64,000 nt of DNA from Bacteroidales bacterium (GCA_014860585.1 JACZJL010000007.1:1-64000); one strand, 5' to 3'. Shown: positions 8,501 through 23,338, numbered from the stretch's first letter. The notes: generated by a model from the letters alone, not told the origin. Translations and numbers: made by a program.

Positions 8501-10253
8501 CAGATGGATTGTCTCCGGAAACGGCGATCCTGGGTGAATTTGTCAGATTAAGTGTTCCGTTACCGGTATTTTTTATAGTAAAGACCTGTATATAGCTGCT
8601 TTCGGTGGCTATTGTCCCAAAATCTGTACCATCAGTTGAGGAAGGTGTATCATCACCATTATCAATCAGGGTATTATTAGCCCAGACGGTCATATCAGGA
8701 TAACCAATACCCATTCCGTTTATATTCAATACATAAGGATTTTCATTCCGGTCATTATTTGCTATCGAAATTATGGCAGATTTGCTGCCTTCGGAGGTAG
8801 GTACAAACCGGACAGTAAAAGTTGTATTGCTTCCTGCTGGTATTGATGATGATGGCTGGGTGATGATATTAAACTGATCTGCATTTGTACCCGAAACAGA
8901 CAAAGGTACCGTAATTGTAAGGTTGATCGTAGATTCCCCCTGGTTTTCAATTGTAATAACCGCATCTGTTTGCGCACCTAAATCTGTATTACTGAAGTTA
9001 AAGGTACCATTATTGGGAATATCGGTGGTTGATTGTTTCAGGTTGATTTCATAATCCTGCCCCTTTCCAAGCAGATTAAAAATGTAAGGATTGTCATCAT
9101 CGGTGTTATTGGCAATACTAATCCAGGCAGTTTTATTGCCTGCACTTGTTGGTGTAAACCTAACCCAGAAAGATGTAACTGTGTTACCAGGTAACAGTTC
9201 TCCATCCGGATTCGTAATTAATCTGAACTCATTGGCATTAACTCCACCCAGTTGAGGTTGTGAAATGGTAAGCAGTGCCGAACCAAAGTTTTTAATATAA
9301 AATTGGAACTGTTGATATGAGTATAGATTGATACCACCGTAATCACAAGTGCCGCCGTTTGGGATGAGAACAGAACTAGTATAACTTAAAGCTTTTCTGA
9401 TTTCTATATCCGGATATCCCCCTGAACCATTGAAAGTGATATTAAACGGATTTTCGTCGGGGTCATTATTTGCTATTGCCAGTAATGCTGTTTTTGAAGC
9501 TGCAGAACCTGGAGAAAAGCGGATTGTAAACGTGGTAGATTCGTTCTTCTGAAGTGTAGTCGCAGCAGGTTGAGTCACAATCGTAAATTCAGGATCGTAG
9601 CCTGATTGAAAAGCGATTGGTGTGGAAAGGGTTAGCGGCCGTGCTGATGAATTAGAAATGGTAAAGGTCAGATCCCGGATTGTACCAACTTTAATCCCAT
9701 GAAAGTCAAAAGTACCGCCATCCGGAATATTCGTACTTCCTTGCTTTATTTCAATTTCAGTTTTTGGCTCAGTTTCATCAATTTGTACCTCGAACACTAG
9801 ATCTATCGACCCGCTGCCATTGCATCCGCCCCATGTTGCTCCTCCACCTGTGTAATGATTACCTGTGGATTGATCAAATCCAAGGTCCTGGCTACAGGAA
9901 AACTCGAAGACATACATAGAATTACCTTCCACTACAGGAAAGGAATTTAATGCAATATTTGAAGTCCCGTTTAGTGTTATACCGGATTGCTGGTAAATAA
10001 CACTGCAATTGCTAGCCTTGAAAATTTTAAGTGTAACATTGGATCTTGTTATGTATGAGACTACCTTGACATGAGTGATTGCACCGAAGTTGCGCGTAGT
10101 AAATGACTGTCCTATTTTCTTATATTGGGAACCTCCGCTTCTGTTGGTTTGCTTAATGACATAGACCTGGGCGTTCAGTACCGGAGTTGCAAGAAAGGAT
10201 AGAATGATCAAAGGTATTCTAACCATGTTTAAAATGTAGCTTTTTGTTTTCAT
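2574..10253 (-). CDS. giant T9SS-secreted multidomain surface protein (cassette 1)
   Basis: A 2,559-aa protein that begins MKTKSYILNMVR with a clear signal peptide ending LNAQ. Domains in order, approximate residues: four ASH/choice-of-anchor-D-like repeats (165-285, 283-398, 400-517, 518-640) with the recurring ANNDxDxNP; a SbsA-type Ig domain (648-755); a LamG/concanavalin-like domain starting LEFDGENDYAS (760-930); a right-handed beta-helix of the polymorphic-outer-membrane-repeat type with GGGMYN turns (1113-1500); Cys-containing Ig-like repeats of about 100 aa (VCEGxLVSAT...GGNGTD...IEIQTWR, four copies) and a second repeat type (GETIC...YSWRSSVDNFAN, two copies); a DUF1349-like lectin-fold domain (about 2280-2460); and a T9SS type A sorting domain (last 80 aa, VDIYPNPAEDLV). 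It is a surface adhesin or glycan-binding protein; substrate unknown. Its last ~170 codons are almost identical in DNA to those of the second giant. Confidence 0.9.
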   Translation of the reverse strand: MKTKSYILNMVRIPLIILSFLATPVLNAQVYVIKQTNRSGGSQYKKIGQSFTTRNFGAITHVKVVSYITRSNVTLKIFKASNCSVIYQQSGITLNGTSNIALNSFPVVEGNSMYVFEFSCSQDLGFDQSTGNHYTGGGATWGGCNGSGSIDLVFEVQIDETEPKTEIEIKQGSTNIPDGGTFDFHGIKVGTIRDLTFTISNSSARPLTLSTPIAFQSGYDPEFTIVTQPAATTLQKNESTTFTIRFSPGSAASKTALLAIANNDPDENPFNITFNGSGGYPDIEIRKALSYTSSVLIPNGGTCDYGGINLYSYQQFQFYIKNFGSALLTISQPQLGGVNANEFRLITNPDGELLPGNTVTSFWVRFTPTSAGNKTAWISIANNTDDDNPYIFNLLGKGQDYEINLKQSTTDIPNNGTFNFSNTDLGAQTDAVITIENQGESTINLTITVPLSVSGTNADQFNIITQPSSSIPAGSNTTFTVRFVPTSEGSKSAIISIANNDRNENPYVLNINGMGIGYPDMTVWANNTLIDNGDDTPSSTDGTDFGTIATESSYIQVFTIKNTGNGTLNLTNSPRIAVSGDNPSDFIISTMPDSSVIPFTGTSNFQIKFQPTGNGHRNAVITIANNDADDNPYIFSVSGLGDNEINPYVTSYSPGNSEHCYLRPQLGLTFNEDVWAVDGKKISIYNNANILFEEIPVADPRVTISGNQIYITPDDSFTSNTEYYVLIDEGAFYDIVGDTYSGIQSSSIWRFTATVAEPPGRCLEFDGENDYASTSLTLPSSGTIEFWFYLNSVYSTYCLWSGGNNSWLMLYTAYSGFQCRIGQSSIATTSTLSANRWYHVAVTWQRTINTVNFSLYLNGTLINVVTDNSWVDPGSTLYIGSSDGLSYFLNGKIDEFRIWNGVRTITKIEDNMFKTITPTGDPLDYLSLLAYYRVDEFRGDVFYDELNNLHNCILHNMTDADWVRSLAPFGDYGKSVRTTLIPITAGADSKTITASSDHLNDDDFLGIYATGEGTNLVTDEDFGSSGVTQRRNLFWGAQEFGSTDADLTFDYSGLALSNSADLKLIKRDNAISPWQDITSTAVHDQVNHTFKLSGVTDFSQFAVGGTSLGLYDPDTIFVKHDAIGNNDGTSWSDAYTSLQVALDNAQSGDQMWVAAGTYKPETAIGGFGDRYKAFKMKNRIAIYGGFSGSENPASFDLDDRDFILNETILSGDLNDNGADNNDAYHVFNHTSGTTVNSTAMLDGFTISGGNANDPFINNTGGGMININSSPTLSNLKISGNTAAENGGGMYNYISSPVLSNVQISDNIATKDGGGIYNLISSPQFINVLVTDNVASRDGGGMYDNLSFSNLINATISGNTADQSGGGMYNVTSTTQIRNSIIWGNSSSVGGKQFYIKFGVSTLSYSCYSDEVGDVDTLIGFLIPDPTVITENPKFGYPDTSDYRLYNNSPCVDVGKNAFNSLATDIRGKGFGRKLYRKNENQAGTIDMGAYEFNFATDPKAPCINPTSGGEIAATPSSMCISQETIVFTAVLSPAGYSGDLEYQWQWSADNILFEDIQDATGENYTHEDNVFTTTWFRRLVRVDCDPNGWINATPSNVVELYIEQSALAGNLTKEPNVDTVCEGTLVSATLIPGSGGNNNDILQSRIFDGTSWSEWESYISGTPVPTEEITAIEIQTWRDADLCSESSVVSSTWVIEQTPTSGTITKIPDNATVCEGDLVSATFSAGSGGNGTDIQQVRINNGNGWSEWMDYMPGEPISTDTLVEIEIQSWREADYCDDAEATYASWEVKNTPITGDLSKTPNANYVCEGDLVSSILSPGFGGNGTDVIQMRTYDGDEWTIWQNYSSAEDIPTMGFEAIEIQTWRDDDDCNNAAIVMVGWTVAKDVDFTAGAIQTIGETICFNTLPQDIIGNAAEASGGDENFTYSWRSSVDNFANEIPGAVSQTYTPEDPLITTTAYRRFANNGTCNTTPEESVGTWTVTVQNEFNSGEIATTGETICYNTSPQQMIGSAIDASGGDENITYSWRSSVDNFANAIPGAIGQTYTPEGLLTVNTAFRRYAKDGTCNTSSEVSLGTWTITIEQIPAGGSLSKSPPEDVICQGSVVSATLTAGLGGNGTDVIEYRSHDGNQWSDWENYISGLEISTSGTMEVQIHTWREATSCEDSGVVTITWETELCCTNPNNAGSISENQNICSGTAPETIENEITPSGLTGILEYKWQWSTTSALAGFNNIANSDAASYSPGNLTTTTWFRRLARVTCVTDDWATAAITDAVKIYILGEEPIEEPWYSCNTHSSANGTSVYYPCEPGLSYKLSATGKSTTTNDVFHFVNKELCGNGTVIARLDEVENGGWGGVMMRESNLPGAKTILFKTRLYNPNVIISYRTTTGSAMRNLSQVAQLIRWMKIQRNVNNFKVFTSYNGTTWQQRYSGTINMGSCIQTGIFTESVLATRTSIAWFDNVEVVNILKSGDEFAGTETNEPGEGQFRVDIYPNPAEDLVTISIPENEGKVNYSITDLDGRVIEQSSFTGSEAVLDVSGFRLGLYVIRMEINGEIFTRRLVVM

Positions 10254-10284: not shown

Positions 10285-10533
10285 TTAATTTAGCATTTTA
10301 AAACAAGAAGGTGATAAAACATTGAGATGATGGGTACTCCAGGGCTGGATATTGTGAAATACCCAAACCTCAATGGTTATTGCTGTTAGGCTTGTACTGA
10401 TTCCCTTAGTTCCGGAAACATAGTCGTAGGTTCCGTCGAAACTCAGGGATGTGCCGGGGATAACCTGAGCCTGAAGCCCCACTGTGGCTGCCATAAGCAG
10501 GCATAGTATATAAATTTTGAAAATCTTTTTCAT
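10285..10533 (-). pseudogene. truncated LamG-type secreted protein remnant
   Basis: About 82 aa. A good signal peptide (MKKIFKIYILCLLMAATVGLQAQ) leads into the first strands of a LamG/concanavalin domain (SLSFDGTYDYVSG...TIEVWVF), then the frame ends after about 25 unrelated residues (HLNVLSPSCFKMLN). A LamG domain needs about 150-200 aa, so this is probably the 5' stump of a larger T9SS protein lost by deletion. The giant begins 32 bp downstream on the same strand and carries its own LamG domain with a similar start (LEFDGENDYAS). An upstream Met at 10557 would overlap the preceding gene by 14 bp. A short functional secreted peptide cannot be excluded. Confidence 0.55.
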
Positions 10534-10543
10534 TGCTGGAGTT

Positions 10544-10861
10544 TTAATGTTCATCATTAGTAATCATCATGTCCAAATCATTCTCAGTTTTATCATCCTC
10601 CACTTCGAAGGATGAAAACTCTTCGGGAGGGACCTCCATAACTTCCATTTGATTAATCCGAAAAAAGCGGTTTCCTGGACTGCAACATTCAACAAAACTT
10701 TTTAGGTTTTCCTTCGTTCCTGATGCTGTTATCCCTACCGAATTTTCATTTTCATAATACACCCTACCTGTTATTCCCAATGATGAGGCTTTAGCTTTCA
10801 GGAAATACCTGAAGCCTGTTTTGAACACAGCGCCGGTGATATGGATAGTATAGCAATGCAT
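10544..10861 (-). CDS. acylphosphatase-fold small protein, catalytic Asn missing
   Basis: 105 aa and cytosolic, with no signal peptide. The sequence follows the acylphosphatase family from the first strand: IHITGAVFKTGFRYFL aligns with the phosphate-binding loop GxVQGVGFRxF and keeps the catalytic Arg (R18). The next helix and strand (AKASSLGITGRVYYENENSVGITASG) also fit, but the position of the catalytic Asn in GWVRN is Tyr36. The loop VQGV is changed to VFKT, and the C-terminus has an extra acidic tail (DDKTENDLDMM). Enzyme activity is doubtful; a binding or regulatory role is possible. It lies between a TPR-AraC regulator and the giant surface gene, mirrored at 20.9 kb. A -7 box ends 5 bases before the ATG, so the mRNA may be leaderless. 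Confidence 0.7.
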   Translation of the reverse strand: MHCYTIHITGAVFKTGFRYFLKAKASSLGITGRVYYENENSVGITASGTKENLKSFVECCSPGNRFFRINQMEVMEVPPEEFSSFEVEDDKTENDLDMMITNDEH

Positions 10862-10865
10862 GGGA

Positions 10866-10873
10866 CAAAAGTA
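10866..10873 (-). promoter_or_regulatory. -7 promoter box for cassette 1 operon
   Basis: The minus strand reads TACTTTTG, matching the Bacteroidota TAnnTTTG box. It is followed by GTCCC and then the ATG of the acylphosphatase-fold gene, so transcription would start at or very near that ATG. Confidence 0.45.
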
Positions 10874-10902
10874 AGCTGCCGTTGAGCGAAATACTATACC
10901 CC

Positions 10903-11027
10903 TGCGTAAATAGGTTTGTCTGTGGGTAAATTAATATTCAACACATTGATAAGCAATAGGTTATAATTGCAAATTTACAGGTAAACGCCGGACTGTCTCT
11001 GCGTAAAAAATCCTGTCAATGCGTAAA
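10903..11027. promoter_or_regulatory. array of TGCGTAAA direct repeats, likely operator
   Basis: The octamer TGCGTAAA occurs at 10903, 11000 and 11020, with near copies TGGGTAAA at 10923 and CAGGTAAA at 10978. Start-to-start distances are 20 (10903/10923), 22 (10978/11000) and 20 (11000/11020), two helical turns, as is typical of direct repeats bound by AraC-type proteins. The array fills the gap between a TPR-AraC regulator gene and the operon it probably controls. Confidence 0.5.
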
Positions 11028-11069
11028 AATTCGGATGTAACAACCTGAAAGGGTGGGAATTAATAAATT

Positions 11070-12752
11070 TTATGCCAGAGGTTGTTTTTCGAGCTTCTGC
11101 GCCATTTCCCTAAATTGATGTGGGGTCATCCCGATTGAATGTCTAAATCTTTTGTAAAAATTTGAATTGGATTTAAAACCGGCCATTTCACCAATACCTT
11201 CAACTGAAAGGTGGCTTAACTGTGGATTGTTCAGGCATTCGATGGCTGTCTTCACGCGATATTCAAACAACAGGTCGTAAAAACCCATCTGATACTTGTC
11301 GTTGATGAGTTTTGAAAGGTAGGTACGGTTGGTGTTTAGTTTTTTACAGCATTCTTCCAAACTTATGTCGCACCAGAGGTAAGGTTTTTCCTCGGCCATA
11401 AATTTCTCCAACCTCAGCGCCAGCTCAGCATTGCGGTCTTCGGCGCCAAGCTTATGCATAATGTCATTTTCCGAAAGATTCCTGAGGCAGAATTCAACCT
11501 GCTTTTCAAGTTTCATGGCCTTCAGGTTTTGTTCAACCAGCTTTTTATAGGCTCTGTTCTTAAATCTGAAAAAAACTACCAGAACCATCAGCAGGCTTAC
11601 AGCTATCAGTGAAATCACCATGAAGTATCTTAATTGTAAGCGGTAGCCTCTTATTTTTTGAGCTTCTTCTTTTATTTTAGTTTCTTTTTCCTGAAGGTCA
11701 TACCTGGCCGACATTTCGTTGATCTGGCGCTGAATCCGATCATCAAAAAACCGGGTCATCAAACTGTATGAAACCTTCAGGTACTCATAAGCAGACGGGT
11801 AATCGCCTAACCTGAAACTTATGTCGGCAAGGTAATAATAAGCATACTTGAATAAATTCCGGTTTTCTTCGATGGTTCCTAATTCAAGCGCTTTGAGCAA
11901 AATATTCTTCGCTTTTTCCGGTTCCCCCAAATTTATGTAGATACGTGACAGATTAAGATAGGTGTTGATTGTTTGCGGAAATTTTTGAATGCTCAGAAAA
12001 TTGTTGGCAGCCTTGGTAATTAAATACAATGCTGAATCAGGTATTTTAAGCCTGAGGTAATTATTCCCGAGTTCGTTTTGCGATAATCCCAAATATTCTG
12101 TCAGTTGATATTTTTCCGAAATTTCGATGCAAAGCCTTGAGTACTTATCAACTGAGTCGGCTCTGTTTCCGTCAAAAGGTTTCTTTTCATTCATCAGCGC
12201 AGCCATCCTGCTCAGGGCAAACGCCCTGTTTTTTACATTGATATTTTGACTACCCAATATCCCATAAATCATTGCGATTCCTTTGTTGTATTCCTTCTTT
12301 TGCCGGTAAGCTTCTGCCAGGTAAATTTTTGCATAGATTGTGGAATCGTTTTGGCCTTCCACTTTATTGATAAATTCGAGGATAAGCGGTATTCCTTCAT
12401 CCGGCCTGGACTGAATAATTAGATTTTGTGCCCTTTCCAATAAATTGCCCGGATTGGAAATTGTGTCGAAAGGAAGGACTTCGTAATTCGCTGATAAGGA
12501 GAAGATTTCATCCAGTATCTGAAACTTTGACCGCATTAAATCGAGCTTTGCCCGTTGGATTTCCGTCAGATGTTCATTGTTGTTCAATTGAGCAAGAAGC
12601 AGTTTCAGGGAATCACAGGTTTGGCCGATTAAGTGTTCGGCATGTTCGTACTGTTCGTCAAACTTCTTCGTGCTTGCCGGTTGAGGTATGGAAGCCTGAG
12701 AAGCCACAGCCAGAAGGATTATGACAACTATCTTTTTAGCTTTTGCGAACAT
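11070..12752 (-). CDS. membrane TPR regulator with C-terminal AraC-type HTH
   Basis: 560 aa. It has an N-terminal signal/anchor (MFAKAKKIVVIILLAVASQAS), a TPR region to about residue 350, a single membrane segment (about 371-395, YFMVISLIAVSLLMVLVVFF), a short coiled coil, then an AraC/XylS double helix-turn-helix (about 448-555: LEECCKKLNTNRTYLSKLIN...GIGEMAGFKSNSNFYKRFRHSIGMTPHQFR). The layout places the TPRs in the periplasm and the DNA-binding domain in the cytoplasm, a known Bacteroidota one-component design. It is transcribed in the same direction as, and immediately upstream of, the acylphosphatase-fold/giant operon, with a repeat array between them that is a plausible target. The signal sensed is unknown. 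Confidence 0.85.
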   Translation of the reverse strand: MFAKAKKIVVIILLAVASQASIPQPASTKKFDEQYEHAEHLIGQTCDSLKLLLAQLNNNEHLTEIQRAKLDLMRSKFQILDEIFSLSANYEVLPFDTISNPGNLLERAQNLIIQSRPDEGIPLILEFINKVEGQNDSTIYAKIYLAEAYRQKKEYNKGIAMIYGILGSQNINVKNRAFALSRMAALMNEKKPFDGNRADSVDKYSRLCIEISEKYQLTEYLGLSQNELGNNYLRLKIPDSALYLITKAANNFLSIQKFPQTINTYLNLSRIYINLGEPEKAKNILLKALELGTIEENRNLFKYAYYYLADISFRLGDYPSAYEYLKVSYSLMTRFFDDRIQRQINEMSARYDLQEKETKIKEEAQKIRGYRLQLRYFMVISLIAVSLLMVLVVFFRFKNRAYKKLVEQNLKAMKLEKQVEFCLRNLSENDIMHKLGAEDRNAELALRLEKFMAEEKPYLWCDISLEECCKKLNTNRTYLSKLINDKYQMGFYDLLFEYRVKTAIECLNNPQLSHLSVEGIGEMAGFKSNSNFYKRFRHSIGMTPHQFREMAQKLEKQPLA

Positions 12753-12781
12753 ATAAGTTGTGATATGACTGATTGAAAATA

Positions 12782-12789
12782 CAAAGATA
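12782..12789 (-). promoter_or_regulatory. -7 promoter box of TPR-AraC regulator
   Basis: TATCTTTG on the minus strand lies 30 bases before the regulator ATG and matches TAnnTTTG. Confidence 0.45.
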
Positions 12790-13012
12790 GTATGTTTTCA
12801 GCCAAAGTGTATCCCCCGTATTATAACATCAAACATTTCATCAAAAATGTATCTGTCGAAAAATGATCGTTTCAGAGTGTCAGAAGATAATTGATCAACA
12901 TCACTTTAGCAGAAACCCCCCGATAGCATCGCTTCAAGCGATCCTATCGTTACTCAGGGATTGATCTGGCAGGACGGAGCTTGCTATAGTAGTCCAGACG
13001 AAGCTTTGCCTG

Positions 13013-13049
13013 AAAAACCTGTCAGTCCCGCACGTGCGGGACTGACAGG
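13013..13049 (-). terminator. terminator of the second giant gene
   Basis: A perfect 32-nt palindrome (13018-13049) begins CCTGTCAGTCCCGCA and has the self-complementary centre CACGTG. On the minus strand it is followed by TTTTTC, giving a rho-independent terminator 12 bases after the giant gene's stop. Confidence 0.75.
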
Positions 13050-13060
13050 GATACAACAGA

Positions 13061-16000
13061 TTACATCACCACAATCCTCTTCGTCACAACCGCTCTTCCA
13101 ATCTCCATCCTGATTACATACAATCCAGGCCTGAATCCGCTCACATCGAGCACGGCATCGCTGCCGGTAAAACTGGATTGTTCGATCACCCGTCCATCCA
13201 GGTTAGTGATTGAATAATTGACTTTTTCTTCATTTTCAGGGATCGAAATAGTGACCAGGTCTTCAGCCGGGTTGGGGTAAATATCTACCCGGAATTGTCC
13301 TTCAACGGATTTGATGGTTTCTATGTCTGCGAATTCATCTCCGGACTTAAGAAAATCAACCACCTCCACATGGTCGAACCACGCAACGGAAGTTCGGGTA
13401 GCCAGCACACTCTCGGTAAAGATTCCGGCCTGGATGCAACTGTTCATGTTAATAGTTCCGCTGTACCGCTGTTGCCAGGTTGTTCCGTTGTAGGAGGTCA
13501 ACACCTTGAAGTTGCTGCCGTTGCGTTGGATTTTCATCCAGCGGATCAACTGCGCTACCTGGCTGAGGTTACGCATGGCCTTGTTTTCGATGGTACGGTA
13601 ACCAATGATCACATTGGGATTGTAAAGCCTGGTTTTGAACAGGACGCATCTGGATGCCGGTCCGCAGTTTTCGCGCATCATCACACCGGCCCATCCGCCG
13701 TTTTTCACATCATCGAGGCGGGCGATGACCGTAGATTTTGGTTCACAAATATCCCGGTAAACGAAATGATACACATCTTTCAGGGTGGTGGACTTGCCGG
13801 TGGCTGTGAGCATAAACGTGCCGTCACTGTTACACGGTTCAAAGATTGATGTACCTGCAGCAGCCGGGTCGGTATCGCATTTGAACCAGGGTGGCAGGAT
13901 TGTGCTGCCTTCAGGTACAGTGACCTGAGAATAAACCGTTGCCTGGTTTCCACATAAATCACTCACCACAACCTTAACTTCCACTATCGTGCCCGAATGA
14001 ATACAGGTTAGTGTTGCGGGGGTGATGTTTACAGAGGCGATGCCGGTTTCATTGTCATCATATTCAGCTAACACATCATCGGGCGTAAGAGGGTAAGTTC
14101 CGTCCGGGTTCAGTTCAATTTGACTGTTAACGGGTATGGCAACCGGAGAGTAGAGATCAACTTTCCAGTTCACTGTAAACCAGGCTGAAGGTTCATAGTA
14201 ACCGGCCAGACGGCGGGTTCTGATTTCAATATCTGTGAAGCCATTGACAGGTAAAAGTGTTTCGGGGAAATAAACAGTCCAGTCTGTCCAAACACCGTCT
14301 GTTTTTACTCTGATCTGCAACTCATCGCTACCATTGCCACCGCTTCCGGGAATCAGTTGGGCAGAAACCTCATCATCATTGCAAACAAATTCCTCGATTG
14401 GCGTTTTTATAAGCGAACCTCCAACCGGCGGTGATTCAATGGTCCAGGTGACACTGACGATTTGCGAATCATTGCAATAGCTGGCTTCACGCCAGGTTTG
14501 AATTTCCACAGCCTGAATGACATCCAGCGTGATTTCCATACCAGAAATATATGTTTCCCAATCACTCCAGCTTCCGCCTGTTTGCGTTCTGAATCGTAGT
14601 ATATCAGTTCCATTACCTCCACTCCCTTCAGTAAATGTAGCTGAAACTGTTGTGCCTGATACAACAAGGATTTCATCAGGGAACTTCGTAAATGTTCCGG
14701 CAACCGGCAAAGGTTCCACAGCAATTTTCACCACATTGGATACTGCTGCTCCTGACCAGTCGCTCATGCATTCAACGCGCGCCAGACGACGGAACCAGGT
14801 TTCGGATACAATTCCGGTTTCTGGTGTAAAATCTTTTCCGTTCGCCCCGGATATGTTGAAGAATGTTGGACTCACCGTTGATGCCTGCCATTGATATTCG
14901 AGTGTCCCACTGTAAGTTCCGGCATCGGTGACACTGGCGATTATTCCGGGTATCTCCCCATAGCAGACGTTGGTGACCGTTGCTACAATTTCCCCTGAAA
15001 CAGCAGGGTTGTTGCAAGGATAGAGAGGATCGGTGTTGTAGTTGTATTCGTATGCACCTAGGTCAATCACCGGATCATCCTTTGTTCCGGTTTTGGGCAT
15101 AATGCGCGGGAACCCTTCTCCACGAATATCAAATTCCTCATTGTTGGCTTCACTCAAACCTTTATCAACACATGGAGATGAGCCGGCAATGCGGAAATCC
15201 TTTTCCCAGGAATTGGCAAAATGGGGATAATGGTGGATGTTGTTATCGCCAAAATTGAAGGTTGTATTTCCATCTGACAGGATATCATCTGCACCATCGG
15301 GGAAACAACTGAAATCAATGGTTAATGTTCCGGAGACCGTGGCGATCTGGTGGCCGTAAAAATCGTTATCCTTCTCTCCGAATGGGAATGGTTCAACCTG
15401 GTTTTCCCAAATAATCGAATTTTCCAGGATAGTGGTGCTTTCTACACTGGCAATTCCACCCCCGGCAATGGATGAATTACCTGTTAATGTGCTGTTTATT
15501 GATTCGAAATGCCCCATGATATTCGCACAAGCACCTCCGGCAAACGCGCTGTTGTTGCTTAGAAGACAATTCTCGGTCTTAAGGCTGGAAACCAGGTTCA
15601 GGATACCTCCACCCAGCCGAAGTATATTTAATTGTTCCGGCAGAGTTTCCTGATCCCAGTCAGAAGGCCAGATAGCGTGATTATTCTGTACAATCGAGTT
15701 TTTGATTTTAAATGCTGGCAACTCTTCGTCTTTGAATTCAGGCCGGTTTGTAAGCCGAATAATAAGAGCATTTTGGTTAATTGTGGTCAATGCCCCCTGC
15801 AATTCCCCCAACAGGTAGTTCAAGCCTGAATATTGATTCTTGCCAAAAGGTAACTCTATGTTTCCTTCAAGAAAGTTTTCAAGAAAAGCGATATCCAGCA
15901 AATTAGCCACTGCGCCGCCCATTAGCGCAGTGTTACCTTCATATTCACTGTGATCAATTTCAGCAAGACTTAATAAGCTACCAATTGCACCACCTATCAT

Positions 16001-19000
16001 GCCTTTGTTTCCGAAATATTCGCTTTGAGTAATCATCAGATTGCTCAGCAATGTGAAAATTGCACCACCTCCAAGATCAAGATTTATTGGCATTTCATCA
16101 TTTTTCCCTTCGGGTAAAATGCTTGCAAGGTCAATGGAAATACCTAAGGTTTGATTATTTTCGAAACGGCACTCGGCAAGAGAGGCCGGAACCTGTTCAT
16201 TCAATAGCCCTGAAGCAATCATTGCCAATCCACCTCCGGCCAGCCAAGCTGTGTTATCTTGAAAAAAGCAACGGTTAAAAACGGGTGAAGTTAAAATTGA
16301 AAATATACTTCCCCCAACGACAGATTTATTGTTTAAAAAGTCACTGTCTTCATTCAGGTGAGAGGCAATCAGGTTAGTTACCGCACCCCCAAGCAATGAT
16401 GAATTGCTGTCGAATTTGCATTCTTCCATTTTCATTTCCGCAATAATATTGAAGATTGCTCCACCTGAAATGCCAGCAGGAAAATCCTCAGGCAATTCAA
16501 TTCCCTCAGGCAGTTCTTGGATAAACTCATTAGTAAAATCATACGTTGTATGGTTCTGAGTGAAATCAGAATTTTTAATCAATAATGTCGGGAAATCATC
16601 TTCCTTTTGAACCTTAACTGGTTGGTTGAAGAGGTATCCAACCCACTTTACGGGATTGAATCCGTTTGATTCTTCCGTATTGTTTTGAAAGATCTTTTCG
16701 AATCCTGATACGTTATTTTTATCGTCTGGCAAGAACTCCTCAATGCCCAAAACAGAGACGTTTACGATGGCACCACCAAATGATGATGCATTGTTTTGAA
16801 GAAAACTACAGGTTTCTATTTCCATTCCGGCTTCAATATTTACGATAGCGCCTCCTGCTGCAAGCAGCATCAGCAAGTCAGGTTCTACCTGCTCCGGCCA
16901 TTCAGCATGGTTGTTACTAAAGATCGTATTTGCAATGGTTATGTTAAATTCATCAACTTTGTTTTTATGGATCATCTGGGTATCATGCCAAAATTTTTTA
17001 AGCACTTTGAAAATTGATGGGACCATGTTATACTCCCCGGGTAGCGTTGGTGGTGGAGAAAAGTTGGATTTACCATTACCATTGAGGATCAAATTGAGAA
17101 AATCCTCCGCGAATTCTGCGTTCAATACGTTTAGGATTGCACCCCCGATCAGGGCAGTGTTTTCAATGAAGCCGCAATCTGCAATCTGAGATGAATAATT
17201 AAATATGCTAAGAACTGAACCGCCTGCTGCAGCAATGTTTCCAGATAAATCCACTTTTGAAACTTGCACATTGCTTAGTGTTGAAAATATTGCAGCACCA
17301 CCCATTGCATTGTTGAACTTAAAAGAGCAATCATCCAGAGTGAGCGTGGAGGAAACAGTTGCCAATCCCCCTCCCATGAAAGCCACATTATTCATTATGC
17401 TGCAGTTGGCAATTTGATAATCTCCTCCCATCAACAGCATCCCTGCTCCTGCTACTCCGAACAGGTCCTCGTCTTCTTTTCCTCCTGTATCAAGATCAGC
17501 ACAACCATCACTGATAATGAATCCATCAATAATCACAGAATTTTGTAGGACAGCGGCGGAAGGATCACCACTGATCACTACATGATAGCATTTGCCGGCT
17601 TCCCCGAGATCGCCGCTCAGAATAGTTTCATTATTCTGAAAATTACGTTGTGAAAGGTTATAATCTTCTGGTTCATCTCCGTAAAATCCACCATAAATGG
17701 CTAACCCTTCTTTTACCCGAAAATGCTTGTGACGCGAGGTTGGATTTAATATCTCATGAGATGAGGTCGGTGTATATGTACCTGCTGCAACCCATATTTC
17801 CGTTACATATGGAAGAAGAATTGCCGATTGAAGCTGTGTTCCGTCGAAAGCATTTTCCCAGTTTCGCCCATTTTTAGCACCTCCTCCTTGCGGACTTACA
17901 TAGGCATGTAACAGGGGTGGCAGAACTTCCAGGGTTCCATTGTGCAATGGATGGCTGCTTCCGGACGGGATAATACCATGCCCTGAAAATTCAGCCCTGA
18001 TGACGTGGTTACCGGTAGAGAAATTATCCGGATTGATATTCAGTGTAGCCAAACCGGTACTTGTTACTACTCCGACACTTCCTTTAAAAACATCATCCAC
18101 ATAAAAATCAACTACACCACCATTTGGTGTGGGTATTACGGTCGCTGTCAAATCAAGAGAAGTTGTTCCAAAATCAATGGATTTGTCATCAACTTCCACC
18201 ACTGTCGGGCTTACTGTTCCCAAGCCGAAACTGCTCATTGAATCAAAAGCATCCACATTGGTGTATTCTGGTTGTCCTGACGCATGGGCTGTGATATTGG
18301 CTTCATGCTTCTTCAATACGACCACACCGTAAGATCCCGGATCATACCCTGTAGCATCAAGTGTAATGAAATATTTGTAGTCAACCGCACCGGACTGGGT
18401 GACTTCCCAGTGTCGGTTTGTTGTTAGCAAAGAAGTATTTGGGGGAAGTGTTCCTGTCAGGCCGGTTTCAAATTGTTCTGCCAAAACAATACTGGCAGCA
18501 TCAAGTGCCGTGTATTCAAAAGAAAGCGGCCGATAATAGCCGTCTTTTCCAATTGGAAAAATTTTAATCCCCGTTGCATCAAATCCCCGCGCCAGCTTAC
18601 CATTAATGTGGGCAGTTGGAGAACTGGCTGTAATGGCGCCGGATGACAACAAGGTTAAAACCTGATTTCCGGTAGTAACAACACCATTTTCCAGCGCTAG
18701 TTGATGATCAACGGTTATATTTTGCTCCAAAAGAAATCCACCTGGATTATCCAAAATCAGGTTATAAAATGAAGTTTCTGATGTTCCTTCTATGATTTGC
18801 TGGGTTGAGCCATTGAGTGTTACGGTTGCGGCGCCGGAGGCATAATCACCGTTGTTGGTCCAATCTCCGCCAACACTCAGATTGTGGTTCCCGGATACAT
18901 AAGTTCCATTGGAAATATTCAGGTTCCCGGTGATGTTCAATGGAACGGATGAAGTGACGGTATTTCCCGGGTTGTCAATCATTAAACTGGCAGGTTGGTT

Positions 19001-20821
19001 TTGTGATGGACCATCACCTGTTATCTGGCTGGTAACGCCCGAGTATTTGAAATGTGCGCCACTTTCGTAATCTCGAACTGCATGTCTGATGTTGCCGCTT
19101 ACATCATTTATTGAAACCCCGTTAGCTGAACCCACATGAATCTGTGCACCCGATCGCAGATGGAAATTGCCGGAACCCTCAATGATGGTTTCACCCTGAA
19201 GGATCAAAACCCCTCCACTGAGTATATCAAGGTCATGGAAAGTTAGTGTGGGTGTAACTGTCAGTTTACCGCCAGACTCAACTAATACATTATCGAAAGT
19301 GACGGTTGATCCGGCCGTAACTTCATTGAATACAGTGGCGAAATTATAGCAATAACCGGGCAGTTCACCGGGATATTCTCCAGCCGCAATCCAGTCGACA
19401 CCATTAAAAAATTCCCAGATATTTTTATCTGTCCAGTTCCCGTCTGATTTTGTGCGATAAATCAGGTCATAATTCCTGGTAATGGTAGCGTCCGGGTCGG
19501 TGATGTCTGTTGTACGTATCAGGTTGTTTCCGTCGGTAATTGAAGTCAGGGTGTAATTTGTGGTAACTGTGGGATTGGGAACGGCATTAAAGGCTATGCC
19601 GCTTTGTATGTCTGTATAAGTAACGCCATTAATAATTAAAGTAAACGGGTTGCTTCCTTCTGTTGCTGTAAAGGTAAGCTGACCTGTTTCTCCTTCACAG
19701 ATGCTGTTTCCTTGAAGGCTTCCCTGGGGAGGGAGTAAAAGTGTAATCTGTGCGGTATGGTTTGCACTGAACGCATTGCCTACTTCATCGGTTTCAATTT
19801 TCGTGATGGTTATTGTGGTAGATTTACTGATAGGAACAGTTTCAAAAATAATTTCTTTGATTGACCCGGAGTAGGTAATCGTTGCTGAAGTGCTATAATT
19901 CCCTGGTGTATGATCCGACAATGTGTAAAATACATTCACCTCCCCATAGGGCAGCCCGACCGAATTGGAACGAAGGGTAACTGTTGAAGTTTCACCCGGG
20001 TTGTAAAGTGGCGAAATGGCCTGGGTTGATTGTAAATTGAAATTTGAGTGTGTTATCTTCACCTTACCGTCGCCGCCATCACCACCTTTGGCAAAACCAC
20101 TGGAGGATCTCCAGCCGCCGCCACCACCGCCACCAGGAGCTGAAGCGTTAGAGCCATAATTTCCTGCGGTCATAGCTCCATCCCCACCATCACCGCCTTC
20201 CCAGGGAGCAATTCCCTTATTATAAGGGAGAGGGGAACCTGCATTGACACCATTACTGCCTGAACCTGAAGATGAACCTCCTCCTCCGGCCCGGTAATCT
20301 CCCTGATCAGATCCCCACATTCCGGAACCTCCAGAGTATGTCACTACATTTCCAATTCCGGCTACCGCGCCTGCCCCTCCTGTAAAGCTACCCAAAGCCA
20401 CACCTTTCCCCCCATAGGCTAATACCGTGGCTGCTGAATGGAACCAGGATGGGCCTCCATCTGATGCATATTCACCTGTGTATTTTCCTCCAGCTCCCAC
20501 TGTAACGGTTCGCCAACCTGATGGTATCCCGGTGAGAATGCTTTTGGAATAACCTCCTCCGCCCCCTCCGCCGGCTCCCCTATCAATATGCGTACTCAGA
20601 GAAACAGATCCACCGTTTCCTCCTGCGCCCCAAACCTCAACTTTGAGTTTGGTAACGCTAGCGGGTAGGTAGTAACCATAAGTTCCGGCAGCAGTGTAAG
20701 TAGATATTTCATTTTGCGCATTTACATCTATCCCTGGAATGGCAACCAGTAAAAGAATGATGAATGTCAGGTTAAGCATTGTACTGAAAAACTTGGGCTG
20801 ATTCGTCATTTTTGTTTTCAT
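13061..20821 (-). CDS. giant T9SS-secreted beta-helix surface protein (cassette 2)
   Basis: About 2,586 aa from MKTKMTNQPKFF. This start is chosen because it gives a normal signal peptide (ending VNAQ) and matches the MKTK start of the first giant. An upstream ATG at 20881 overlaps the stop of the preceding gene as ATGA and could allow translational coupling. Order, approximate residues from 20881: Gly-rich domain (75-275, runs of up to eight Gly); Ig-like segments; a second region of beta-sandwich repeats (about 500-985); a very long right-handed beta-helix (about 990-1944) with repeated (A)GGAxxN(I/L) turns and the closing IDLGAYEYNYNTDP; two VSATxxxGSGGNGTD repeats like those of the first giant; a DUF1349-like domain; and a T9SS type A sorting domain (VDIYPNPAEDLV). 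Probably a cell-surface adhesin. Confidence 0.9.
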   Translation of the reverse strand: MKTKMTNQPKFFSTMLNLTFIILLLVAIPGIDVNAQNEISTYTAAGTYGYYLPASVTKLKVEVWGAGGNGGSVSLSTHIDRGAGGGGGGGYSKSILTGIPSGWRTVTVGAGGKYTGEYASDGGPSWFHSAATVLAYGGKGVALGSFTGGAGAVAGIGNVVTYSGGSGMWGSDQGDYRAGGGGSSSGSGSNGVNAGSPLPYNKGIAPWEGGDGGDGAMTAGNYGSNASAPGGGGGGGWRSSSGFAKGGDGGDGKVKITHSNFNLQSTQAISPLYNPGETSTVTLRSNSVGLPYGEVNVFYTLSDHTPGNYSTSATITYSGSIKEIIFETVPISKSTTITITKIETDEVGNAFSANHTAQITLLLPPQGSLQGNSICEGETGQLTFTATEGSNPFTLIINGVTYTDIQSGIAFNAVPNPTVTTNYTLTSITDGNNLIRTTDITDPDATITRNYDLIYRTKSDGNWTDKNIWEFFNGVDWIAAGEYPGELPGYCYNFATVFNEVTAGSTVTFDNVLVESGGKLTVTPTLTFHDLDILSGGVLILQGETIIEGSGNFHLRSGAQIHVGSANGVSINDVSGNIRHAVRDYESGAHFKYSGVTSQITGDGPSQNQPASLMIDNPGNTVTSSVPLNITGNLNISNGTYVSGNHNLSVGGDWTNNGDYASGAATVTLNGSTQQIIEGTSETSFYNLILDNPGGFLLEQNITVDHQLALENGVVTTGNQVLTLLSSGAITASSPTAHINGKLARGFDATGIKIFPIGKDGYYRPLSFEYTALDAASIVLAEQFETGLTGTLPPNTSLLTTNRHWEVTQSGAVDYKYFITLDATGYDPGSYGVVVLKKHEANITAHASGQPEYTNVDAFDSMSSFGLGTVSPTVVEVDDKSIDFGTTSLDLTATVIPTPNGGVVDFYVDDVFKGSVGVVTSTGLATLNINPDNFSTGNHVIRAEFSGHGIIPSGSSHPLHNGTLEVLPPLLHAYVSPQGGGAKNGRNWENAFDGTQLQSAILLPYVTEIWVAAGTYTPTSSHEILNPTSRHKHFRVKEGLAIYGGFYGDEPEDYNLSQRNFQNNETILSGDLGEAGKCYHVVISGDPSAAVLQNSVIIDGFIISDGCADLDTGGKEDEDLFGVAGAGMLLMGGDYQIANCSIMNNVAFMGGGLATVSSTLTLDDCSFKFNNAMGGAAIFSTLSNVQVSKVDLSGNIAAAGGSVLSIFNYSSQIADCGFIENTALIGGAILNVLNAEFAEDFLNLILNGNGKSNFSPPPTLPGEYNMVPSIFKVLKKFWHDTQMIHKNKVDEFNITIANTIFSNNHAEWPEQVEPDLLMLLAAGGAIVNIEAGMEIETCSFLQNNASSFGGAIVNVSVLGIEEFLPDDKNNVSGFEKIFQNNTEESNGFNPVKWVGYLFNQPVKVQKEDDFPTLLIKNSDFTQNHTTYDFTNEFIQELPEGIELPEDFPAGISGGAIFNIIAEMKMEECKFDSNSSLLGGAVTNLIASHLNEDSDFLNNKSVVGGSIFSILTSPVFNRCFFQDNTAWLAGGGLAMIASGLLNEQVPASLAECRFENNQTLGISIDLASILPEGKNDEMPINLDLGGGAIFTLLSNLMITQSEYFGNKGMIGGAIGSLLSLAEIDHSEYEGNTALMGGAVANLLDIAFLENFLEGNIELPFGKNQYSGLNYLLGELQGALTTINQNALIIRLTNRPEFKDEELPAFKIKNSIVQNNHAIWPSDWDQETLPEQLNILRLGGGILNLVSSLKTENCLLSNNSAFAGGACANIMGHFESINSTLTGNSSIAGGGIASVESTTILENSIIWENQVEPFPFGEKDNDFYGHQIATVSGTLTIDFSCFPDGADDILSDGNTTFNFGDNNIHHYPHFANSWEKDFRIAGSSPCVDKGLSEANNEEFDIRGEGFPRIMPKTGTKDDPVIDLGAYEYNYNTDPLYPCNNPAVSGEIVATVTNVCYGEIPGIIASVTDAGTYSGTLEYQWQASTVSPTFFNISGANGKDFTPETGIVSETWFRRLARVECMSDWSGAAVSNVVKIAVEPLPVAGTFTKFPDEILVVSGTTVSATFTEGSGGNGTDILRFRTQTGGSWSDWETYISGMEITLDVIQAVEIQTWREASYCNDSQIVSVTWTIESPPVGGSLIKTPIEEFVCNDDEVSAQLIPGSGGNGSDELQIRVKTDGVWTDWTVYFPETLLPVNGFTDIEIRTRRLAGYYEPSAWFTVNWKVDLYSPVAIPVNSQIELNPDGTYPLTPDDVLAEYDDNETGIASVNITPATLTCIHSGTIVEVKVVVSDLCGNQATVYSQVTVPEGSTILPPWFKCDTDPAAAGTSIFEPCNSDGTFMLTATGKSTTLKDVYHFVYRDICEPKSTVIARLDDVKNGGWAGVMMRENCGPASRCVLFKTRLYNPNVIIGYRTIENKAMRNLSQVAQLIRWMKIQRNGSNFKVLTSYNGTTWQQRYSGTINMNSCIQAGIFTESVLATRTSVAWFDHVEVVDFLKSGDEFADIETIKSVEGQFRVDIYPNPAEDLVTISIPENEEKVNYSITNLDGRVIEQSSFTGSDAVLDVSGFRPGLYVIRMEIGRAVVTKRIVVM

Positions 20822-20877
20822 AGCTAAAGTTTGTTTGGTTAAGAAAATTTCATTTGATTTCGATGAATATATTTGGA

Positions 20878-21207
20878 TCATCGGAGATTGATAATTCTGA
20901 ATTCGTTATAGTTCAGCAATTGCTTATTTTTCGAAACACTTAATATAATTTCGTTTTCCCCGGTGAGGAGTTTGAGCTGTTGCAGGAATTTTTCCAACAG
21001 ATTTGACTGTACCTCGATTTCAATAAGAATAATATTGGCGCCGGATCTTTTTACGAATCCGTTGATCCGCATTTCTAAAGCAAGCCGGTAGATTTGAAAA
21101 ACATAGTTGACCTTGCTGCTGAAATTGCCGGAAAGAGAAATTGAGATCCTTTTTTTGACAGCAGCGTCCTGAAGATTTTCCCCGGAAAAATTCACTGACG
21201 TTTTCAT
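20878..21207 (-). CDS. catalytically dead acylphosphatase-fold small protein
   Basis: About 109 aa from MKTSVNFSG. A frame start at 21261 exists, but the -7 box at 21248-21255 lies inside it, which favours 21207. ISISLSGNFSSKVNYVFQIYR aligns with the acylphosphatase loop GxVQGVGFRYF, and LALEMRINGFVKRSG with the strand bearing the catalytic Asn. The catalytic Arg position is Tyr and the Asn position (GWVRN) is Arg, so both key residues are lost. Length and predicted strand order still suit the fold. It sits directly before the second giant, as its relative at 10544 does before the first. The alignment is by eye and weaker than for the first copy. Confidence 0.55.
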   Translation of the reverse strand: MKTSVNFSGENLQDAAVKKRISISLSGNFSSKVNYVFQIYRLALEMRINGFVKRSGANIILIEIEVQSNLLEKFLQQLKLLTGENEIILSVSKNKQLLNYNEFRIINLR

Positions 21208-21247
21208 TTCATTTTGCCCAAAGGTGAATGTACCCGATTGAGCCTGA

Positions 21248-21275
21248 CAAATGTACAACATAAAGCCGCCTCAAA
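21248..21275 (-). promoter_or_regulatory. promoter of cassette 2 operon
   Basis: The minus strand has TTTG (21275-21272), 16 bases, then TACATTTG (21255-21248). This is a good Bacteroidota -33/-7 pair, with the predicted start near 21241. Confidence 0.55.
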
Positions 21276-21286
21276 GCAAATTTTAG

Positions 21287-21306
21287 GGTTGGACAAAGGT
21301 TGGACA
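21287..21306. promoter_or_regulatory. GGTTGGACA direct repeat, likely operator
   Basis: Two exact copies of GGTTGGACA at 21287 and 21298, with an 11-bp period (one helical turn). They lie just upstream of the -33 box of the cassette 2 operon and beside the LuxR-type regulator gene. Confidence 0.45.
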
Positions 21307-21409
21307 GGGTGAAAAAAATGGATCCGGTTTGCTGAATTGTGATCTGATGGATGTCCCTATGAACCGGTTCGATCCTCTCTCAGATATTACCTTCAGCCTT
21401 CAGCAGTTC

Positions 21410-23338
21410 TTAAAACCGGTTCAGGAATTCGTGCATTTCCATGTCGGAAGGGATATTCATTTTTTTGCGGAGGCGATGGCGACTTTTTTGAACGCCGGCA
21501 GGAGTTACACTGAGCATGCGGGCAATTTCCTTGGTGTCGAGGTTAATGCGGTAATAAGCACATAATTTCAGCTCTGCGGCGGTTAGGTCCTGAAAATTGG
21601 CCTGAAGTTGGGCGAAAAAACCGGGGTTTACTTCATCAAAATGTAGTTTGAATTGCTCCCACTCCCCATCAAGATGTATATTTTCACTCACGAGCTTGTT
21701 TATTTTCGAAAAGCACTGTTCAACCCCCTGAGGGTTCTCTGATTTCATTTGGTCAACTTCTTCAAGAATGCGGTTCATGATGTCGTTCTTGTTGAGCACA
21801 TGCAATATACGGGAAGACAACTCCCGGTTTTTCTGATCCAGCTTTTCGTTTTGCAGCCGGTTGATCTCCTGCTCGGCAAACAACTGATCTTCGAGGCGCG
21901 CATGTTCAAGTGCTCTCAATTTTGTTTCCTGTTCATAAAGTGTAGTTTTCTGCTTCAGTGTTTTGTTTTTCAACCGGTAGAAGTAAGACAGGAAGATCAC
22001 CATAATGATTAATGCTGTAATGCTGACGAAGAGTAATAACTTGGTTCGCTTCTGAAATGTAATGCTTTGACGTAGCCATTGATTCTCCTGTTCCTTTTTT
22101 TCGCTCTCGTAACGGGTTTCCATATCTGCGATCTGCTTCGACTTTTCTTCAGTAAATATGCTGTCTTTGAGCGATACATAATCACTGAAGAGATCGAAGG
22201 CTTTTGGGTAATCTCCCAATTTTTCATAAACCTTTACAAGCGTTTCATAGTTTTTCAGCAGGTAGGTCTTTAATCCTGATGATTTTGAGGCTTCTATTCC
22301 TTTCTCTGAAAAATGGATCGCACTATCCGGCATTCCTTTATCCATGTATATCTTTCCCAAATTGGCACAGGTATTGGCGATCCCAATGGTATATCCCAAC
22401 CGAAGGCTGATCCGTAGCGATTTCAGGTAATAATTAAGTGACTGCTGCTGTTCTCCAAGGCGTTCATAAATTAGCCCCAGGTTATTGTAAATTCCTCCAA
22501 TCCCAATACTGTCATTTAACGATTTTCCAATTTCCAGCGCTTCCAGGTAAGTTGTCAGCGCCTCATGGTAAGCGGTTTCGTCAATCTGTATCAGCCCGAT
22601 GTTGTTGAGGGTAATAACCAGGATTTCAGGTTGACTGGCACTGCGACTTAATGCGAGTGCCTCGTTGAGCAAGGCTTTTGCTTTGTTTGTTTGTTTTAAA
22701 TACCAATATAGGACAGCGATATTGTTAATTGTAGTCACTCTTGACGGAAGATTTCCCGGATTGTCCGGTTGAAGAATTGCCAGCGTATCAACAATCCTTA
22801 ATGCATTCAAATGCATTTCGAGTGCTTTTTCCAATTCACCGATGTTCTGATAAATGTTTCCTGCATTTGAACACATCGACTGAAGACGTTTTAACAACAG
22901 ATGATTGGTAGGGTCATTGTTTATTGCCTGACGCAAATAGGCAACCGCTTCGGTCATGTAACTCAATGCAACTTCATTTTTACCCAGGTAATAATTTGGA
23001 ATGGCCAGTCCATTGAGGGCATTTGAAATGAGCAGGGGGTCATCAGTACGCCTGGCAATATGAAGTGCTTCCTCCGACAACAATAGGCTGACTGAAGGAT
23101 TGCTCAGGCTGAAATTACGACTGTAATCCAGCAAAGCGGCAACCTTTTCTCTATCAGGTAGCGTTGAAGTTTGCCGTACCAGGCTGTCGAAAATTATGCT
23201 CACTTTGACCTGTAAGGAAGTTGAACTATCTCCTCCATGTGGTATATTTTCGACCGAACCAGTCTGAATTGCAGGAACTGCAGATTTGATTGCAGTAATA
23301 AAAAGTAAAGTAAATAAAACGGCTACAAATACTTTCAT
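21410..23338 (-). CDS. membrane TPR regulator with C-terminal LuxR-type HTH
   Basis: About 642 aa from MKVFVAVLFTLLFITAIKSAV, a signal/anchor sequence; the frame extends to 23410 but that would place 24 extra residues before the signal. A run of TPRs (about 60-400: ALEMHLNALRIVD, ALTTYLEALEIGK, SLNYYLKSLRISL) should lie in the periplasm. A single membrane segment follows (about 431-455), then a coiled coil rich in E, Q and R, then a GerE/LuxR helix-turn-helix at the end (LTAAELKLCAYYRINLDTKEIARMLSVTPAGVQKSRHRLRKKM). It sits immediately upstream of the acylphosphatase-fold/giant operon, paralleling the AraC version at 11-12.7 kb, and is its likely regulator. Confidence 0.85.
   Translation of the reverse strand: MKVFVAVLFTLLFITAIKSAVPAIQTGSVENIPHGGDSSTSLQVKVSIIFDSLVRQTSTLPDREKVAALLDYSRNFSLSNPSVSLLLSEEALHIARRTDDPLLISNALNGLAIPNYYLGKNEVALSYMTEAVAYLRQAINNDPTNHLLLKRLQSMCSNAGNIYQNIGELEKALEMHLNALRIVDTLAILQPDNPGNLPSRVTTINNIAVLYWYLKQTNKAKALLNEALALSRSASQPEILVITLNNIGLIQIDETAYHEALTTYLEALEIGKSLNDSIGIGGIYNNLGLIYERLGEQQQSLNYYLKSLRISLRLGYTIGIANTCANLGKIYMDKGMPDSAIHFSEKGIEASKSSGLKTYLLKNYETLVKVYEKLGDYPKAFDLFSDYVSLKDSIFTEEKSKQIADMETRYESEKKEQENQWLRQSITFQKRTKLLLFVSITALIIMVIFLSYFYRLKNKTLKQKTTLYEQETKLRALEHARLEDQLFAEQEINRLQNEKLDQKNRELSSRILHVLNKNDIMNRILEEVDQMKSENPQGVEQCFSKINKLVSENIHLDGEWEQFKLHFDEVNPGFFAQLQANFQDLTAAELKLCAYYRINLDTKEIARMLSVTPAGVQKSRHRLRKKMNIPSDMEMHEFLNRF

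Follow-up and report, generated by a model that had tools for sequence, protein, structure and literature searches.

Cassettes of a tetratricopeptide-repeat regulator, a degenerate acylphosphatase and a giant type IX secretion cargo recur in Bacteroidales

Polysaccharide utilisation loci of Bacteroidota are locally regulated surface operons with hybrid two-component regulators. In such loci a local membrane regulator adjoins the surface-protein operon under its control, and a comparable arrangement is found in two gene cassettes of a Bacteroidales bacterium (GCA_014860585.1, JACZJL010000007.1:1-64000; this stretch of 64,000 nucleotides is referred to below as the window). The cassettes lie in tandem, head to tail on the minus strand, and each consists of a gene for a regulator with tetratricopeptide repeats (TPR) and a helix-turn-helix (HTH) domain, a gene for a small protein of the acylphosphatase (AcP) family and a gene for a giant protein (~2,560-2,610 residues) destined for the type IX secretion system (T9SS). 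The first-pass annotation of the window had reported this three-gene order twice on the minus strand, and the order, strand and coordinates are all correct. The trio represents a genuine cassette that recurs, and each copy is very probably a dedicated unit of regulator, operator, AcP and cargo.

The recurrence of the trio is best seen in the bacterium's own family, where 22 divergent AcPs are encoded in 11 of the 12 genomes. The gene directly after the AcP, on the same strand, encodes an exported protein in 20/20 evaluable cases, that is, those with a downstream neighbour on the contig, export being assigned by visual inspection of the N-terminal signal. Many cargos run off the contig and the sorting domain was checked on complete cargos only; the T9SS type A sorting domain (TIGR04183) exceeds its cut-off in 8 of the 10 complete cargos of relatives, falls slightly under it in L088 and is absent from L141. 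A same-strand TPR-HTH gene is located upstream of 12 of the 18 family AcPs with sufficient contig, sometimes with genes between. The genome of the window holds three loci matching the Pfam Acylphosphatase family (PF00708) in total, the two AcPs of the window and one on contig C76, which is immediately followed by a T9SS giant and has a TPR-LuxR regulator upstream with two other genes between; the assembly, which is incomplete, yielded neither a canonical AcP nor HypF. When the type A AcP profile was run across the class, the 30 best-scoring loci were essentially canonical AcPs, which served as a control. A T9SS-like neighbour, at 245 bp, stands beside only 1 of the 36 canonical AcPs examined.

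The first-pass annotation had made its proposal depend on the occurrence of the trio in other genomes, and the trio recurs in the family, in other Bacteroidales families (L134, L136, L140, L141, L144, L146 and L147) and in named Bacteroidales metagenome-assembled genomes together with one labelled Saprospiraceae (L161-L163 and L166). A scan with a close AcP alignment found 11 loci. The locus L245, from a different family, was fetched after the rules had been formed and is an out-of-sample case in which all three predictions held: it contains a TPR-LuxR gene, an AcP and a giant of 2,303 residues whose end is T9SS-like, and its upstream region carries the type C 11-bp repeat TTGTCTATTA TTTGTCTATTG. 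Its 14-base period score at 11 is not the top one in that region, which also contains simple repeats. No cassette was found at L246 and L247, AcPs of other families fetched with L245.

The two regulators are alike in architecture (signal, TPR, one membrane helix assigned by eye, coiled coil, HTH) and end in an AraC-type and a probable LuxR-type domain, as had been proposed. Regulator 1 (11070..12752, minus strand, 560 residues) matches HTH_18 at 52.6 bits, TPR_12 at 37.8 bits and TPR_2 at 39.8 bits, and its AraC domain is accompanied by direct-repeat half-sites spaced by ~20 bp upstream of the target promoter. Regulator 2 (21410..23338, minus strand, 642 residues) matches GerE at 20.3 bits, under the 23.5 cut-off, and this weak assignment is backed by its close relatives L044 (30.6 bits) and L086 (29.1 bits); the relatives L092, L140 and L147 gave no GerE match at E 0.001.

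The gaps between regulator and AcP genes were said to hold a promoter box and direct repeats. Both are present, and the repeats are of two kinds that match the regulator types. AraC-type cassettes have direct repeats spaced by 20 bp upstream of the AcP start, with L141 as an extreme carrying four perfect copies, and LuxR-type cassettes have direct repeats spaced by 11 bp (among them two copies each of TGTCCAACCTT and TTTGTCTATTG), commonly just ahead of a -33 TTTG element. For the best 14-base self-match, AraC cassettes score a mean of 11.5 at offset 20 and LuxR cassettes one of 10.6 at offset 11, compared with ~7.8 for dinucleotide shuffles; 0 of 20,000 shuffled sets reach the observed score for either period, counts that are not fully independent as operator sequences are related within types. 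The 20-bp period does not occur in LuxR cassettes, nor the 11-bp period in AraC cassettes, and both are missing from the regions ahead of 24 canonical AcPs. Spacing is identical between types whose repeat sequences differ, and the proximal half-sites occupy fixed positions at -79/-59 or -69/-49, a shift of one helical turn.

In cassette 1 the predicted distal operator (10993..11027, minus strand) consists of TTTACGCAnnGACAG twice, 20 bp apart, and is the sole zero-mismatch match in the 4.7-Mb genome. A proximal half-site pair, also 20 bp apart, is located at 10896..10930 (minus strand), or -69/-49 from the AcP1 ATG, where homologues have -79/-59. A -7 box of the Bacteroidetes type, TACTTTTG (10866..10873, minus strand; consensus from PMC8748976), precedes the AcP1 ATG by 12 nt. 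The -7 box is 12-13 nt ahead of the ATG in most AraC cassettes and the AcP message is therefore probably almost leaderless; AcP1 itself would have a near-leaderless start. In cassette 2 the predicted operator is the 11-bp direct repeat TGTCCAACCTT followed by TGTCCAACC (21287..21306, minus strand), with the -33 TTTG element just downstream (21277..21280, minus strand); the AcP2 operon has TACATTTG as its -7 box (21248..21255, minus strand). The start of AcP2 is most likely 21207 rather than 21261 because the annotated start precedes the -7 box.

Each of the three operators of this genome occurs once, at its own cassette, and the genome search with operator 2 gave, besides its own site, three-mismatch matches at control level. 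Since operator geometry is matched to regulator type and each operator is unique in its genome, the sequence provides good evidence that control by the neighbouring regulator extends to the AcP-cargo unit and hardly beyond it. The earlier suggestion that the regulator switches the adjacent AcP-giant unit thus gains support for control from operator geometry that tracks the type of DNA-binding domain. At L165 (994-1293) a type A AcP has 20-bp repeats and no adjoining regulator gene; the regulator of another cassette may act on it in trans.

AcP1 (P0001; 10544..10861, minus strand, 105 residues) and AcP2 (P0002; 20878..21207, minus strand, 109 residues from the corrected start) match PF00708 at 54.3 and 26.0 bits, both over the 22.5 cut-off. 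The AlphaFold2 model of AcP1, built from window and same-genome contig sequences only, has the AcP fold with a predicted local distance difference test (pLDDT) score of 82; its top matches in the PDB are acylphosphatases, the best being that of B. subtilis (E 9.4e-9, TM-score 0.76/0.88). The AcP2 model is weak (single sequence, pLDDT 61) and its best match is an acylphosphatase at an E of only 4.7e-3. The acylphosphatase fold that had been assigned to both middle proteins is thus borne out for AcP1 and is a tentative assignment for AcP2; structure prediction did not reveal the unrelated folds that were considered as a possible refutation. Both proteins had also been described as having lost active-site residues. 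AcP2 has lost the catalytic Arg and Asn; in AcP1 only the Asn is lost (replaced by Tyr) and the phosphate-loop Arg is retained. No cassette AcP in the family set keeps both the Arg (GFR loop) and the Asn (GxVxN). Types A and C retain the phosphate-loop Arg, and types B, D and E, at the same genomic position, are without the loop residues. Judged by these residues, the cassette AcPs are predicted to be catalytically dead. The ratio of nonsynonymous to synonymous substitution (dN/dS) of the AcPs is ~0.13-0.32, which indicates purifying selection, and the reading of the middle proteins as functionless relics is rejected on this ground.

A screen of long open frames for AcP fused to a regulator or to cargo gave HypF, canonical frames and spurious ones, and nothing else. 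A degenerate AcP gene stands in tandem with a canonical-looking one in other Bacteroidales genomes (L137 10602-11195, L148 10209-10946 and L149 10822-11611), and the cassette AcPs may have arisen by such duplication. In two genomes (L139 5999-6328 and L142 2607-2906) a divergent AcP lies directly before a gene judged by eye to be leucyl aminopeptidase-like, a recurring setting distinct from the cassettes.

The proposed mechanism treats each cassette as an autonomous switch that serves a single T9SS surface protein. The TPR part of the membrane regulator would lie outside the cytoplasm, with the HTH inside, and envelope sensing through the TPRs is plausible. The regulator would bind its private direct repeats just upstream of the AcP gene and switch on the AcP-cargo operon, and the catalytically dead AcP, made together with the cargo, would partner the regulator in the cytoplasm, most likely to provide feedback or gating. 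Regulator and AcP would form a conserved front end with an interchangeable giant behind it. Activation as the direction of control, the signal to the TPR part and the contact between AcP and regulator are parts that we infer. The whole model, including action of the AcP on the regulator, is given an even chance. It is tentatively proposed, with a little less than even confidence, that dead acylphosphatases have come to serve specifically as partners of transmembrane TPR-HTH regulators. The two would then make up an exchangeable sensor-switch module by which different T9SS proteins are put under the same control, a new Bacteroidota regulatory class.

The partner of the AcP was approached through covariation in 21 cassettes, with the cytoplasmic part of the regulator taken as 210 residues and dependence assessed by a partial Mantel test. 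AcP similarity follows the cytoplasmic half of the regulator (rho 0.48 overall, 0.58 within AraC and 0.62 within LuxR). The correlation remains when the TPR half is controlled for (partial Mantel 0.41, p = 0.0003), and that with the TPR half is 0.01 when the cytoplasmic half is controlled for. AcP similarity does not follow the cargo N-terminus (rho -0.02; 0.29 within LuxR only), and similar cargo is found after AraC-type and LuxR-type front ends (L163 with L089, and L166 with L090). These comparisons indicate that regulator and AcP evolve together and that cargo is swapped freely. Action of the AcP on the regulator is somewhat favoured over help to the cargo because AcP divergence tracks the cytoplasmic half of the regulator independently of the cargo.

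Help to the cargo is what the first-pass annotation had in mind when it suggested a role for the small protein in making or exporting the giant. The AcP would bind the nascent giant or its mRNA in the cytoplasm and aid translation, the unfolded state or the feed from Sec to the T9SS, with the regulator controlling the operon without contact to the AcP. The AcP gene invariably comes immediately before that of the exported protein, with starts that overlap or are closely spaced, and this would suit such a role, as would the very large size of the cargo and the loss of all active-site residues in the AcP2 type, as expected of a binding protein. However, the independence of AcP divergence from the cargo N-terminus and the presence of similar cargo behind different AcP types argue against it, as do the several paralogous AcPs per genome, one for each cassette, and the existence of short cargos (L136, 220 residues). 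The suggestion is not supported in its original form, and this alternative, although the foremost rival, is considered unlikely. The phosphate-loop Arg of types A and C raises another alternative, that the AcP is not a protein partner but a metabolite sensor that binds a small anionic ligand (e.g. acyl phosphate) through its GFR loop; types B, D and E occupy the same genomic position without the loop residues, and this reading is improbable.

Several observations weigh against the AcP-regulator model. Roughly half of the divergent AcPs outside the family are in other contexts, the regulator is kilobases from the AcP with genes between in L044, L077 and L089, and no regulator was found nearby in L080, L085 and L091. 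Linkage of neighbouring genes combined with easy cargo exchange may lie behind the covariation, and the TPR half may be noisier to align, which might account for the closer tracking of the cytoplasmic half. Linkage by itself could be behind some of the covariation but does not readily explain this closer tracking. The trio as such could also be a coincidence, since T9SS genes (~79 sorting-domain-like places in this genome), TPR regulators and small open reading frames (ORFs) are all common and the repeats might be due to chance or inheritance. This is contradicted by the association with exported cargo set against the canonical control, by repeats whose periods divide by regulator type, by independent confirmation in another family (L245) and by purifying selection on the AcP. 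Coincidence is thus extremely improbable.

Giant 1 (2574..10253, minus strand, 2559 residues) has choice-of-anchor D repeats, LamG and a T9SS type A sorting domain, and giant 2 (13061..20881, minus strand, 2606 residues, likely translation start 20821) has a glycine-rich N-terminus and the same type of sorting domain. Their identification as T9SS surface proteins is upheld by TIGR04183 scores of 44.0 and 43.4 bits (cut-off 23), and the sharing of C-terminal modules is confirmed. The T9SS sortase PorU is encoded in the genome (1345 bits); two neighbouring PorU-type sortase genes, of 1345 and 1262 bits, are located at G000:C28 12345-19505. About 13 closely related C-terminal T9SS modules of the KSGDEF type are present on G000 contigs C31, C11, C134, C56, C54, C79 and C184, many at contig ends, and are probably recombining repeats that break the assembly.

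The trio of cassette 1 was correctly listed in the first-pass annotation, which did not describe a fourth ORF (10285..10557, minus strand) between AcP1 and giant 1. It codes for a signal peptide and ~40 residues from the start of a LamG giant before the frame is closed by a stop. The product shows 52% identity (2e-14) to the N-terminal part of the L134 LamG giant, which in another genome comes after an AcP of the same type as AcP1, and it also resembles the cargo N-terminus of L074. The ORF is most readily explained as a scar left when giant 1 took the place of a previous cargo. Small exported proteins with a PID-CTERM-like ending (16-21 bits, under the cut-off) occur in or beside cassettes at L089 9939-10211, L136 7313-7603 and L144 3932-4174. 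At L145 (1564-4815) an AraC regulator and an AcP are followed by a probable lipoprotein in place of a T9SS protein, possibly a cargo of another export type.

If the model is correct, it provides a testable control circuit, with predicted operator sites, for giant T9SS surface proteins of uncultured Bacteroidales. It would also be a case of a metabolic-enzyme fold converted to a regulatory or export part, and it would account for the exchange of surface proteins in these bacteria with retention of the control apparatus. A search of the open-access literature, which is not proof of novelty, found no paper linking acylphosphatase with type IX secretion and nothing on TPR-HTH regulators of T9SS proteins in such an arrangement.

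The cassette regulators have in common with the TPR-transmembrane-HTH regulators of Bacteroidota the TPR, the single membrane helix and the cytoplasmic output, but differ from them in the recurrent AcP gene partner and the private direct-repeat operators. Regulator 2 matches the BT3442 family (BT3442_fam, NF053779) at 80 bits, far under its 940-bit cut-off, and the cassette regulators have weak NCBIfam similarity to the sensor kinase FimS (NF053520). The cassette AcPs share the fold and an over-cut-off family match with the acylphosphatase family (PF00708; YccX, human AcP and the N-terminal domain of HypF), whereas the Asn or both catalytic residues are missing in every cassette copy. Canonical copies are found in a housekeeping context and the cassette AcPs in a regulator-secretion cassette. 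Compared with polysaccharide utilisation loci, no SusC/D, kinase or receiver is seen, and T9SS cargo and a dead acylphosphatase are present instead. The giants share a signal peptide and C-terminal sorting domain with T9SS type A cargo (TIGR04183 / PF18962), for which the genome has PorU, but differ from such cargo in general in having a dedicated AcP-containing regulatory cassette upstream.

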